Assembly (NCBI GenBank): GCA_022508305.1
Contig: JAFLVM010000002.1
Coordinates: 27,729 to 91,728 of the forward strand
DNA length: 64,000 nt
From: Clostridiales bacterium
GTDB taxonomy: Bacteria > Bacillota > Clostridia > Christensenellales > CAG-314
Reading direction: 5' to 3'
Shown here: positions 60,229 to 64,000 of the stretch, piece after piece
How positions within the stretch are numbered: position 1 is the first letter of the stretch
How the letters are laid out: each line of letters opens with the position of its first letter
The notes under the pieces: generated by a model
The model's database searches: none
The model's input: the letters and a program-made list of their open reading frames with translations, nothing else
What the model was told of the DNA's origin: nothing
Translations under genes and position numbers: made by a program

Positions 60229-60846
60229 ATGCCCAAGATTACCGACATGCAAATTCAAAAGAACAACAAAACTCGCGCCAACGTGTTTATCGACGGCGAG
60301 TTTGCTTTTGCTTTGGAAATGTTCACGGTAATGAAGTTGGGGCTAAAAATCGGTCAAGAGGTGTCTGAAGAAAAGCTCAGCGAGGCAATGCTGGACAGTG
60401 AAAAGTCCGTTGCATTCGAGCGCGCAATCGACTACCTCGGTCGCGGCATGAAGACGGTCAAGCAGCTTAAAGACTATCTCGTTAAGAAATCCTACCCGCC
60501 CGAAGTGGTGGAACACGTTGTCAACCGCCTTAAGGACTACCGCTATTTGGACGACGAAGCCTATGCCAAAATGTACGTCGAGCATAACAGCGCAACCAAG
60601 GGCGAACGCCGCTTGAAACAGGAGCTGGTGCAAAAGGGCATTTCCGTAAGCTTAGCCGAAGAGTATTCCGTAGTAGACGAGGAAAAATCACTCGAAAACG
60701 CCCGTCACCTTGCGGAAAAGTATATGAAAAACAAGCCTCGCGACCTCAAAACCTTGCAAAAACTGCAACGCTACCTTGTGGGGCGCGGTTACGACTTCGA
60801 CGTAGTTAATTCAGTTACCCGCTCTTACCGCTTTGACGAGGAGTAG
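60229..60846 (+). CDS. recX: RecX regulatory protein
   Basis: 205 residues of repeated three-helix units. ERAIDYLGRGMKTVKQLKDYLVKKSYPPEVVEHVVNRLKDY and RRLKQELVQKGIS are the RecX tandem-repeat signatures. RecX modulates RecA filament activity; recA is not in the window. ACAAGGA precedes the ATG. Confidence 0.93.
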   Translation: MPKITDMQIQKNNKTRANVFIDGEFAFALEMFTVMKLGLKIGQEVSEEKLSEAMLDSEKSVAFERAIDYLGRGMKTVKQLKDYLVKKSYPPEVVEHVVNRLKDYRYLDDEAYAKMYVEHNSATKGERRLKQELVQKGISVSLAEEYSVVDEEKSLENARHLAEKYMKNKPRDLKTLQKLQRYLVGRGYDFDVVNSVTRSYRFDEE

Positions 60847-60934: not shown

Positions 60935-60963
60935 TTGACACCCCAAAACGACTATGCTACAAT
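60935..60963 (+). promoter_or_regulatory. Promoter of the leader peptide and Cys-rich lipoprotein
   Basis: TTGACA (60935-60940), 17 bp, TACAAT (60958-60963). Between recX and this promoter only an AT-rich weak hairpin is seen. Confidence 0.85.
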
Positions 60964-61015: not shown

Positions 61016-61096
61016 GTGACTAAAACACTTACAATAACTCACACTTATTTAACGCAATGCTGTACCTGTGACGAATTGAACAGTTTTGTAATTTAA
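61016..61096 (+). CDS. 26-residue leader peptide with clustered Cys codons
   Basis: A GTG-initiated frame with GAGGGA seven bases upstream. It opens with Thr-rich residues (TKTLTITHTYLT) and then has QCCTCDE: three Cys codons at 61058, 61061 and 61067. The stop overlaps the 5' arm of a terminator. This is the arrangement of a ribosome-mediated attenuator, and the gene behind the terminator encodes a strikingly Cys-rich protein. The alternative is that it is a free peptide or a non-coding leader. Confidence 0.55.
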   Translation: MTKTLTITHTYLTQCCTCDELNSFVI

Positions 61097-61138
61097 GCGC
61101 CGCAAATTCTTCGGTTAGAAGTACGTTGCGCTTTTTTT
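61095..61138 (+). terminator. Terminator between leader peptide and lipoprotein (attenuator)
   Basis: AAGCGC (61095-61100) pairs with GCGCTT (61128-61133), with an inner TTCT/AGAA hairpin, followed by seven T's; the lipoprotein's ribosome-binding site comes 20 nt later. Confidence 0.8.
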
Positions 61139-61171
61139 AATTTAAAAATTTTTATAAGGAGAAACAAAACA

Positions 61172-62659
61172 ATGACAAAAACAAAGAAAATTGTAGCTCT
61201 TTTGGTTGTTGTAGCAATGTTGTTCACGTTCGTTGCAGCTATTGCAGCTTGCGCTGAACCTCACGAGTGCGGACACGTATGTGAAACTTGCCACAAGTGC
61301 ACGGACGCAACCTGCGAGGACAAAGTTTGCGCAGAAAAGTGCGAAGGTCACGGTAGCGAAACAACTCACACCTGCAAACACGTTTGCGCAACTTGCGGAA
61401 AATGCACAGACACAGCTTGCCAAGATACAGCTTGCGCTCAAAAGTGCCCCGGTCACCAACAACAAGGTGGCTCTCACGAATGCAAACACGTTTGTAGCGT
61501 ATGCAACAAGTGCCAAGACACGTGTACCGACTCCGCTTGCGCTCAAAAATGCGAAACAACCTGCCCCGGCAATCCCGACTATGACGACGGCAAAGGCAAC
61601 CCCGCGCACGTTAAAGACAAGGGAATTGACGATTTGGTAGATAATCCTCCCGCAAATCTCACGGCTATCTACGAAGTAATTGGTATTTGGGTTCCCACCG
61701 GAAATGACAGCGACCAATACGGTAACGGTAAGCTTATTGACAAGAGCTCGGGCAAAGAACTGGTAATTTACGGTATGGCTCCCACGGAAGATGCATTCTC
61801 ATACAACAGCGATACCGGTGTTTATGCATTTACCAATCCCAAAGCTTTCCAAAGCATAAAGGATCAATTTGCAGCAGGCGATGAAATTAAGCTTGGCGTG
61901 GCTTATAGCTCACAATACAAGAACTACTATTCTTACTTCATTTCGAGAGAAGAAGTTTCTGCAAATATCCTGTACGAAGCAACCTTGACGTTTGATAACG
62001 AGAAAGGTTCTGCATCTCTTTCTAAAACTTCCGGTCTCGTTTACGGTGAAGAAGTAACCATCACAGCTACTCCTGCGGCAAACTTCAAGATTGGTACAGT
62101 AAAATTCAACGGTGTTGAAATTAACAAAACCGGTGAAGATTACAAATTCAAAACAGTCGTGGGTAAAAACGAAGTAGAAGTTAATTTCGCTCCGGAAAAC
62201 GAAAAAACACTCAAAACACTGGTTATTGACTTGACTAGCACTGCTAGCGGTATCGTTGCAAAAGCTGACGTATCTACAACTGAAGTTAAAGAAACAGTTA
62301 TAAATGGTATTACGCTTAAATATCTCAACTGCCACCAAAACAGCGGTTATGCGATGTTTAACACAGCCAATTCATGGCTTGCGAATGATACACCTATCAA
62401 CGGTACTATTGTCAAGGTCGAAATTGCAATCAATACTGGCTCAAGCGGAAGTGCAGTATACTATATAACAATTGGCACTGAAAAAATATTAGAAACAAAA
62501 ACGACTGGCGCTACCGCTACTCAGACAGGATTAGGAACAACTAATAGTTTGGTCGCAGAAGTTAGCGAACAAAACGGTGGTTCTTACTTTAACGTTTCAC
62601 AGTCAAGTAGTAAAAACGGTCAAATCAAAACAATCACCGTTTCTTACTACGAGGCATAA
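61172..62659 (+). CDS. Cys-rich repeat lipoprotein with OB-fold-like and beta-sandwich domains
   Basis: 495 residues. The signal peptide ends in lipobox IAAC near residue 27. Three tandem Cys-rich repeats of about 35 residues follow (pattern HxCxHVCxxCxKCxDxxC, then CAxKC), residues 30-135; this part could bind metal or be disulfide-bonded. Then an OB-fold-like domain (AIYEVIGIWVPTG, GKLIDKSSGKELVIYG), a short beta module near residue 270 and a C-terminal beta-sandwich ending VSYYEA. AAGGAG precedes the ATG. Its repeats 2-3 are nearly identical in DNA to the convergent neighbour. Function unknown. Confidence 0.8.
   Translation: MTKTKKIVALLVVVAMLFTFVAAIAACAEPHECGHVCETCHKCTDATCEDKVCAEKCEGHGSETTHTCKHVCATCGKCTDTACQDTACAQKCPGHQQQGGSHECKHVCSVCNKCQDTCTDSACAQKCETTCPGNPDYDDGKGNPAHVKDKGIDDLVDNPPANLTAIYEVIGIWVPTGNDSDQYGNGKLIDKSSGKELVIYGMAPTEDAFSYNSDTGVYAFTNPKAFQSIKDQFAAGDEIKLGVAYSSQYKNYYSYFISREEVSANILYEATLTFDNEKGSASLSKTSGLVYGEEVTITATPAANFKIGTVKFNGVEINKTGEDYKFKTVVGKNEVEVNFAPENEKTLKTLVIDLTSTASGIVAKADVSTTEVKETVINGITLKYLNCHQNSGYAMFNTANSWLANDTPINGTIVKVEIAINTGSSGSAVYYITIGTEKILETKTTGATATQTGLGTTNSLVAEVSEQNGGSYFNVSQSSSKNGQIKTITVSYYEA
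61369..61596 (+). repeat. Inverted near-identical module, left copy
   Basis: 228 bp coding for Cys-rich repeats 2 and 3, matching the reverse complement of 63773-64000 with four mismatches by direct comparison. The right copy is cut by the window edge, so the true repeat may be longer. Confidence 0.95.
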
Positions 62660-62718
62660 AGTTAGTAATTAAATATACAAATCACTAACGTATAGTTGAC
62701 CGTACAACTAAAGAAAAA

Positions 62719-62750
62719 AAAGGACTTGGGAATTTCCCAAGTCCTTTGTA
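62719..62750. terminator. Bidirectional terminator between convergent paralogues
   Basis: AAAGGACTTGGGAA (62719-62732) pairs with TTCCCAAGTCCTTT (62734-62747); A-run on one side, T-rich on the other. Confidence 0.9.
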
Positions 62751-62775
62751 TTTTGACTGTTTGATTGCCTATTGA

Positions 62776-64000
62776 TTAAGCATAAACCTCTACTTTCTCA
62801 ATACGAACTTGAACTGCAATTTTCGTAAGAGTAAATGAATCTGCTGCGCTGTCAAGAGTGATAGTGATTTGACGAGTGGTTGATTCTTCGGTTATTGTGA
62901 GACCAGCACCAGTTGTAGAACCAAGTGTTGCCTTTCCCGATTCACATGTCAATACAACGTATTTGAATGCAGATGTATACGCAAATGTGATATTTGTGCT
63001 TGCATAGAAACGTTGCGCTTGTCCTGCAGAAGGAGTATACCAACTGCTTGCAGAACCCTTTTCGTTTGTTACAGTGATACCATTTCCAGTATATGTATTA
63101 ACTGTGGAGGAAGTTGTAAATTGAAGGTCAGATGCTTTTAGATCCAATGTAGCAACAAGTACCGGATCTGCTGCTCCTTTTTGTTTCAACTCAACGCTTA
63201 CTTTCGTGTCGCCGTTGATTGTTCCCGTGTATGTTCCATCCGTATCTTCAACTTTTACGCCGTTTACCTTCGCGCTAACGAGTTCATAACCTTCATCGGT
63301 GACTGTAACAGTAAATGTGAAAGATGTTCTATTTTCGCCTTGTGTTTTACTGAGGTTGATTGTAGCGTAATCATTTTCAACAGCTGTGATTGTAGAAATA
63401 CCAACTTCAACAATTTGCTTTACTTCGGATTGTACTTCGTCGGAAGATGCGGCTGTAATTTCTACTGTTCCGTAGTAATTTTGAATTTTACCGTAAACAA
63501 GAACTGTGTCGTGAGCAGCGGGGAGATCTACACCTTCAGCCAAGTACATATAGTAAGTTTTGATAATTGTTGTATCGCCTTCTTCGTCAACCATGTCAAA
63601 TCCGTAAGCACCCTTTGACGCATTGTTAACAGCTACTTCACCCTTTACGATACCTTTAACCCAGTAGTAATCTGTGGAGTACGCCTTGTCAGCAAGACCG
63701 AGTTCTGTGCATTTCGCAATAGCCTCAGCAATTGTGAAAGGATTGGCTTCTGTTCCCTTTTCGTCTGCGCCACCTTTGCCGTCGTCATAGTCGGGATTGC
63801 CAGGGCAGGTTGTTTCGCATTTTTGAGCGCAAGCGGAGTCGGTACACGTGTCTTGGCACTTGTTGCATACGCTACAAACGTGTTTGCATTCGTGAGAGCC
63901 ACCTTGTTGTTGGTGACCGGGGCACTTTTGAGCGCAAGCTGCATCTTGGCAAGCTGCGTCCGTGCATTTTCCGCAAGTTGCGCAAACGTGTTTGCAGGTG
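62776..64000 (-). CDS. Cys-rich repeat lipoprotein paralogue (N-terminus beyond window)
   Basis: At least 408 residues on the minus strand; the start lies past 64000. The visible N-terminal part is the same Cys-rich module (CKHVCATCGKCTD and CKHVCSVCNKC), then TEANPFTIAEAIAKC and an OB-fold-like domain with YYWVKGIVKGEV and VLVYGKIQNYYGTVEI, then an Ig-like module (residues about 180-230 of the visible part) and a C-terminal beta-sandwich ending VEVYA. The C-terminal half shares architecture but little sequence with the convergent paralogue. Confidence 0.8.
   Translation of the reverse strand, partial: TCKHVCATCGKCTDAACQDAACAQKCPGHQQQGGSHECKHVCSVCNKCQDTCTDSACAQKCETTCPGNPDYDDGKGGADEKGTEANPFTIAEAIAKCTELGLADKAYSTDYYWVKGIVKGEVAVNNASKGAYGFDMVDEEGDTTIIKTYYMYLAEGVDLPAAHDTVLVYGKIQNYYGTVEITAASSDEVQSEVKQIVEVGISTITAVENDYATINLSKTQGENRTSFTFTVTVTDEGYELVSAKVNGVKVEDTDGTYTGTINGDTKVSVELKQKGAADPVLVATLDLKASDLQFTTSSTVNTYTGNGITVTNEKGSASSWYTPSAGQAQRFYASTNITFAYTSAFKYVVLTCESGKATLGSTTGAGLTITEESTTRQITITLDSAADSFTLTKIAVQVRIEKVEVYA
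63773..64000 (-). repeat. Inverted near-identical module, right copy
   Basis: Reverse complement of 61369-61596 with four mismatches; identity stops abruptly at 63773 where the proteins diverge. Confidence 0.95.

Follow-up and report, generated by a model that had tools for sequence, protein, structure and literature searches.

The genes slpA and slpB of Lactobacillus acidophilus have a 5' region in common, and Boot et al. reportedly described the 6-kb slp segment of this species in 1996. The locus reported here, a pair of convergent lipoprotein genes with near-identical 5' blocks beside recX, resembles the slp pair in several respects. It lies in a stretch of 64,000 nucleotides (nt) of a Clostridiales bacterium (the window; G000:C12:27729-91728), and the source genome, G000, comprises 1.47 Mb on 46 contigs. 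The comparisons described below make it probable that this locus codes for a pair of surface lipoproteins and has a single expression site, at which the C-terminal parts of the proteins, here called payloads, would be exchanged by inversion. For L. acidophilus, the sections of two reports used here (PMC6015585, PMC7858073) describe that slpB has no promoter and that segment inversion exchanges the genes. Also in the present case one gene stands at a predicted expression site and the other is predicted to lack a promoter. Opposed genes with a long, near-identical 5' region were found in G000 (567 base pairs (bp), 98.8%) and in the related genome G020 (395 bp, 92%), and a promoter in front of one copy was predicted on the recX side in 4/4 genomes, at 11 of 12. 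The products are different, i.e., they have a lipobox Cys and a Cys-rich stalk, and searches in Pfam and NCBIfam revealed no S-layer family in them at an expectation value (E) of 1 or better. In contrast to the slp genes, they are lipoprotein genes of an uncultured bacterium, the locus occurs in several species, the shared block includes the end of a leader open reading frame (ORF) and a hairpin, and the inversion, which has been seen in Lactobacillus, is here a prediction from sequence. Membership in the slpA/slpB or the lipoprotein-inversion families is not claimed; the products are not S-layer proteins.

The sapA homologues of Campylobacter fetus have long conserved 5' regions, different remainders and a RecA-linked inversion. 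That system has many cassettes and an inverting promoter segment, whereas two genes and a fixed promoter are present here. For Ureaplasma, the parts of the source used (PMC3047005) describe that the surface lipoprotein genes mba and UU172 have a common 5' region, that DNA inversion joins a silent end to the active start, and that inverted repeats of 21 nt have been proposed for mba. The present pair is like mba/UU172 and the mycoplasma systems vsa, vsp and vpma in that putative surface lipoproteins have a common 5' region (signal peptide, anchor). Unlike these systems, which use short repeats and site-specific recombination, it has repeats of 395-567 bp where they are resolved. With repeats of hundreds of bp, general recombination is a simpler guess than a site-specific mechanism. 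Inspection by eye of the ORFs adjoining the pair revealed no recombinase; no profile search for recombinases was made. Inversions have been reported in many Clostridia, and the same survey notes that large ones, formed by homologous recombination of long repeats, in most cases originate elsewhere (PMC5903667); the method described there discards multi-mapping reads, so that long-repeat inversions of this kind would be missed.

The inverted repeat and the predicted one-sided promoter

The following features define the pair:

60229..60846, plus strand, recX, an ORF and the fixed neighbour on the promoter side
60935..60963, plus strand, predicted sigma-70 promoter TTGACA-17-TACAAT, 11/12 matches, outside the repeat and on the recX side only
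61030..61596, plus strand, repeat arm A with leader part, hairpin, ribosome-binding site, signal peptide, lipobox and Cys-rich stalk; it has 567 bp and differs from arm B at 7 positions
61172..62659, plus strand, lipoprotein gene A, 495 amino acids, in the promoter position
62776..64000, minus strand, lipoprotein gene B, truncated by the window; 473 amino acids when complete on the contig (L008 10505-11926)
63773..64000, minus strand, inner part of repeat arm B, which runs on outside the window to L008 12068

The comparison of 61369-61596 with the reverse complement of 63773-64000 revealed 4 mismatches in 228 bp, at 61408, 61412, 61427 and 61567, which is exactly the count given by the first-pass annotation of this stretch. 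The annotation had also noted that identity ends abruptly at the linker, and the break could be placed at 61596/61597, where the payloads start. Extension to the right on the source contig, as proposed there, showed that the repeat exceeds the window end and has 567 bp with 7 mismatches (98.8%), and it also completed gene B. Arm B as a whole is G000:C12:91501-92067 (E 2e-290 versus arm A). The repeat takes in 142 bp 5' of the start codon, and thus the shared block also holds leader and terminator-like hairpin, of which the annotation had no knowledge. A near-match search of a plasmid collection with window positions 61016-63999 gave no match.

The promoter was found on the recX side of all four genomes with the two-copy layout (G000, G005, G013 and G020), in each case with 11 of 12 matches and a spacing of 17. 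Among 400 shuffles, sites as good occurred once for G000 (fraction 0.0025), never for G005 and G013, and twice for G020. The best far-side sites were ordinary versus shuffles, with fractions of 0.295 (G000), 0.995 (G005), 0.53 (G013) and 0.11 (G020). A GTG leader start preceded by a Shine-Dalgarno (SD) sequence, judged by eye, was present at -15 or -16 relative to the block, again on the recX side in 4/4 genomes. From these results we infer that the recX side is the expression site of the pair.

Homologous recombination between the inverted blocks would have two outcomes, i.e., conversion would keep the blocks identical, or the segment between them would flip. A crossover anywhere in the G000 block would leave both frames intact and would exchange the payload behind the recX-side promoter. 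The far copy has no comparable promoter or SD-led leader start; it would serve as a reserve that is silent or weakly expressed. Payload exchange by inversion is plausible, and the one-sided promoter would give a reason for it. If this is true, an uncultured genus carries a conserved two-state surface-protein switch, and switching of the slpA/slpB type, described in a laboratory Lactobacillus, would also apply to lipoproteins with a fixed place on the chromosome.

The pair in related genomes and the homogenisation of its blocks

The collections contain one genome per species. A relative of recX, a name that we take from recognition of the protein by eye and not from a library match, is present in 25/25 genomes of the genus, and in all of them the region downstream of it was read as far as the contigs allow. 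A lipoprotein gene behind a leader follows recX in G000, G005, G008, G009 and G020. G013 has promoter and leader at this place, and its contig stops 240 nt past recX. In G002, G015 and G019 minD lies directly 3' of recX. The two-copy layout is common to G000, G005, G013 and G020, and in all four the repeat starts 15-16 nt inside the recX-side leader ORF; the recX-side block of G008 is a single copy. The convergent pair of G000 recurs in G020, where the inverted repeat has 395 bp (92%), the N-terminal module is of another type and the payload ORFs have 455 and 235 amino acids. The G005 block as a query detected a second G005 copy on C12 (98% over 323 bp) and gave weaker matches at the corresponding places in G013 and G020. 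Between the two G005 copies there is a 54-bp difference in a linker that is rich in Gly and Ser and consists of 18-bp units.

A self-comparison of 243 loci of at least 2.5 kb, including overlapping loci, yielded inverted repeats above 300 bp only for the G000 and G020 pairs; as these loci were picked for the lipoprotein family, this is no genome-wide survey. Shorter inverted repeats were found in L169 (122 bp, 80%) and L037 (120 bp, 82%).

The outer edge of the block is marked by a palindrome, CAATAAT-ACxCA-ATTATTG, in 3/25 genomes (at most 1 mismatch), and there on the recX and far sides only. It occurs at two places in G005, two in G013 and four in G020, where one copy lies at recX and three lie in tandem on the far side. 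No copy was found in G000, and the reversed-pattern control gave none. The boundary palindrome of G005, G013 and G020 may be a site for a dedicated recombinase. The tandem in G020 (L224 2239-2295), which marks the outer edge of that inverted repeat, consists of three boundary elements with a unit of 19 bp.

For an analysis of the history of the pair, the eight copies from the four genomes were split at the boundary and all pairs were compared. Within a genome the inner blocks are 98.9% (G000, 564 nt), 98.1% (G005, 323 nt), 98.1% (G013, 52 nt) and 92.2% (G020, 387 nt) identical. Between genomes the identity is at most 81% (alignments of at least 42 nt), and several pairs gave no match; stretches of 24-26 nt with 96% identity between genomes represent the palindrome. 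The two outer flanks of one genome match each other in 0/4 genomes, and between genomes the recX sides match in 5/6 and the far sides in 3/6 genome pairs. Because the inner blocks are alike within a genome and the flanks are side-specific, the sides are old and the inner blocks are young in each genome. Judged by these comparisons, this is an old pair that is homogenised by recombination between its copies. An exchange between the copies by gene conversion or inversion, both of which the first-pass annotation had named, is well supported if confined to the 5' part, with 92-99% identity within genomes and side-specific flanks.

The annotation had named a recent duplication as its first option, which is not the best reading. 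In this case, the 5' part would have been duplicated recently in G000 and a new payload would have been attached. The identity of the pair (98.8%) versus that of the third paralogue, G000:C23 (68-75%), would fit, as would the observation that payload modules do change N-termini (G011, G020 and G012; C16/C12 in G006). However, G005, G013 and G020 each have a pair flanked by recX and minD and with a common boundary element, so that the origin of the two-copy locus precedes these species; independent events would need to have produced the same boundary and the same one-sided promoter. We regard this explanation as improbable.

The pair could also be homogenised by gene conversion only, with both genes expressed and fixed in place, so that signal peptide and stalk evolve in concert and no switching occurs. 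The homogenisation in four genomes would be explained by this process, and the mismatch-free tract of 270 bp within the repeat (61033-61302), which spans the leader and the beginning of the gene, looks like a conversion tract. In addition, unlinked genes of G006 share 5' blocks (96.8%, 95.2%), which inversion at a single locus cannot explain. Conversion only would leave unexplained why promoter and SD-led leader start are one-sided and why the genes are convergent in G000 and G020, the genomes with assembled segments; moreover, recombination that converts long inverted repeats is expected to cross over, too. A locus without switching thus appears doubtful to us, while having a better claim than a recent duplication.

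The third alternative is that the assembler made the repeat or the convergent order. The genomes are drafts, and in G005 and G013 the repeat is where 4/4 contigs stop: C5 and C12 of G005 break off on identical letters, and C17 and C21 of G013 stop 52 and 81 nt after the first base of the palindrome. As contigs end at the repeat in 2/4 genomes, the payload segment is attached there to neither flank, and such loci are easily lost. The far-side neighbour, divergent from the far gene, is minD in G005, G013 and G020, and it is rplM in G000, an adjacency of recX and rplM that was not seen in the stretches from 24 relatives, several of them limited by contig ends. In G000, rplM was moved to the far side either by rearrangement or by an assembly join. 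However, the two G000 copies have 7 differences, different outer flanks and different payloads and are thus two real copies, and G020 holds an independent, resolved pair (92%). An artefact is therefore very improbable, and payload exchange by inversion remains the preferred reading of the locus.

Three further observations concern rplM. Beyond arm B, it carries a 12-of-12 promoter that points away from B. The distance between recX and rplM is about 4 kb in G000 (window 60229-60846 to L008 12245) and about 29 kb in G023. In the rplM-upstream stretches of the 24 relatives, several of which were stopped by contig ends, recX was absent.

The leader and the putative attenuator

In leader-peptide attenuators such as pyrBI and tnaC, a short translated ORF lies directly before a hairpin with a T-run. 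Two features upstream of gene A have this layout:

61016..61096, plus strand, leader ORF with GTG start and 26 codons (MTKTLTITHTYLTQCCTCDELNSFVI), preceded by AGCGAGGGATAATCT; the repeat starts 15 nt inside it
61095..61138, plus strand, terminator-like hairpin with T7, -12.3 kcal/mol; its end lies about 31 nt 5' of the start codon

The same order, i.e., an SD-led short ORF, then hairpin and T-run, then the gene, was found in 5/5 complete recX-side leaders. The leader ORF has 26 codons at the same place in G000, G005 and G020, 23 codons in G008 and 31 in G009. All five hairpins are followed by a T-run of 5-8 and have folding energies of -12.3 to -33.5 kcal/mol, and for each leader none of 100 mononucleotide shuffles was as good. 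The distance from the hairpin end to the start codon is 31 nt (G000), 30 nt (G020 and G008), 28 nt (G005) and 16 nt (G009). Relative to the stem, the leader stop codon has a position of -2 to +3 nt in 4/5 cases, with an overlap of the first two stem bases in G000, and in G009 it lies within the stem. The hairpin beside the leader stop codon is thus probably an attenuator, and it would be relieved by a ribosome translating the leader. Unlike in pyrBI and tnaC, it lies inside the exchanged block.

The motif QCCTC in the G000 leader had raised the possibility of Cys-sensing attenuation. The five leader peptides contain 3, 2, 2, 1 and 0 Cys, and with 2, 2, 1 and 0 in the leaders other than that of G000 this was rejected as a general rule.

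A more speculative extension is that the exchanged block carries its own translation-gated silencer. The DNA switch would then include an RNA lock, and this combination would be conserved next to recX in several species. At the recX-side copy, a ribosome translating as far as the leader stop codon, which touches the hairpin, would hold the hairpin open, and the gene would be on. On the far side, where the SD-led leader start is lost, stray transcription would meet an unopposed terminator, and the gene would be off. A single inversion would then swap promoter and read-through licence together. This proposal is tentative, and we would sooner doubt than accept it. If true, the attenuator-like leader of the switched block would connect the DNA switch to an RNA gate, a link that is possibly new.

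Payload modules and the lipoprotein family

The remaining features of the pair are the payloads and the region between them:

61597..62656, plus strand, payload A, 353 amino acids
62719..62747, both strands, two-way terminator between the convergent genes (L008 10448-10476, called on both strands)
62779..63771, minus strand, payload B, 331 amino acids

The N-termini of A and B are alike, with a lipoprotein signal followed by three Cys-rich repeats, as seen in the sequence. The payloads have no DNA match in the comparison of within-genome pairs. BLASTP detected 23% identity over 192 amino acids (E 1e-6, composition correction off), and hhalign with two 5-sequence profiles gave a probability of 97.6% (E 3e-12, 226 columns, 21% identity). 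By these alignments, the payloads are diverged homologues with modules in the same order, in agreement with the earlier statement that the C-terminal halves keep their order and not their sequence. The fold names proposed with it (OB-fold, beta-sandwich) were not confirmed by Pfam or PDB sequence searches. Pfam reported one sub-threshold InlB-like repeat on A (E 0.017, 15.5 bits versus a cut-off of 23.6), and no credible function of payload or stalk was found with Pfam, NCBIfam and PDB sequence searches.

Relatives of payload A are present in 12/61 genomes searched and those of payload B in 13/61, own genome counted. The closest relative of payload A (G011, 68%) forms the C-terminal end of a 2423-amino-acid ORF with a different N-terminus. 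The relatives in G020 (50%) and G012 (42%) also have N-termini other than that of A, and for G015 (39%) the contig stops before the N-terminus. B-type payloads lie 3' of recX in G008, G009 and G020 and on the far side in G000. This difference between genomes fits inversion between the blocks and is taken as a hint only.

Several results weigh against the exchange of payloads by inversion and against the parts of this reading. Homogenisation can arise by gene conversion alone, with payloads staying put, and in the 46-contig G000 assembly the order of the middle segment could be an assembly choice. The flank similarity across genomes lies partly in the coding ends of recX and minD, the far flank of G000 matches that of no other genome, and the G013 comparison covers 52 nt only. 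The far copies of G000, G005 and G013 hold in-frame starts, with no evident Shine-Dalgarno sequence. A promoter-like site with 9 of 12 matches (TTGCCG-18-TATTAT) is present 5' of B outside the repeat, a perfect TATAAT without a good -35 lies at the boundary, and the promoter scan finds sites often (13 versus 6.9 expected). A stricter terminator scan did not contain the G000 hairpin, the folding of the whole leader was not unusual versus shuffles (G000, z -0.87), and in Rfam no family exceeded its gathering score, the top one being SSRC34_1 with 26.9 bits versus 64. Lastly, the relatives aligned with payload B of G000 share only 22-29% identity with it, and the top relative (G002:C67) is not known to adjoin recX.

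On the basis of the Rfam score and the z value, a known RNA element was dropped as a candidate for the leader.

The lipoprotein family extends far beyond the pair. Relatives of the N-terminal module (E 0.001 or better) were found in 22/25 genomes of the genus, and a further one in an uncultured Clostridia bacterium (62% over residues 28-127). A Cys-motif filter reduced 37 loci to a family set of 26 ORFs from 25 loci, and it missed, e.g., the gene of G023. The nucleotide blocks were compared for within-genome pairs of five named genomes only. Also elsewhere in the family, genes with different ends have 5' blocks in common within a genome. In G006 these are C38/C10 (438 bp, 96.8%) and C38/C30a (437 bp, 95.2%); C10 resembles C30a over 931 bp (85.6%), and thus their payloads are related. 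In G005, C1, C4 and C17 are 94-98% identical over 168-183 bp, and the contigs C4 and C17 begin inside the module. The reverse case is C16/C12 of G006, which have 1456 bp in common at 94%, whereas the preceding N-terminal parts reach only 77% over 109 bp. From such cases it appears that payload modules move between N-termini. The third paralogue of G000 mentioned above is far more diverged than the pair.

A third Cys-rich lipoprotein of G000, without a leader (L009 8037-9758), lies just 5' of an alpha-amylase lipoprotein (Pfam PF00128, E 4e-84), with seemingly more carbohydrate-related lipoproteins nearby. Direct repeats of 454-476 bp (94-99.6%) occur in L148, L150, L152, L156, L157, L186 and L210, mostly at lipoprotein 3' ends, as if C-terminal domains had been duplicated recently. 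L173 (G022:C42:31500-39000) contains three 5' blocks of 188-276 bp in the same direction and close together (90-93% identical), a direct-repeat arrangement in which deletion or duplication could take the place of inversion.

Promoters of the type TTGACA..G7+..TATAAT were found at 28 places (L239-L266) in 14/25 genomes of the genus and not in G000, and the reversed-pattern control gave 0. As judged by eye, 13/28 precede lipoprotein genes and 11 other ORFs, and no ORF was found for 4. They resemble slipped-strand phase-variable promoters. The shared 5' block of G006 lipoproteins contains such a poly-G promoter (C38, C10, C30 and C33; compare C1 and C2 of G005), and the same promoter sequence is present at four places in G006, one of them at a contig end (C33:62-92).

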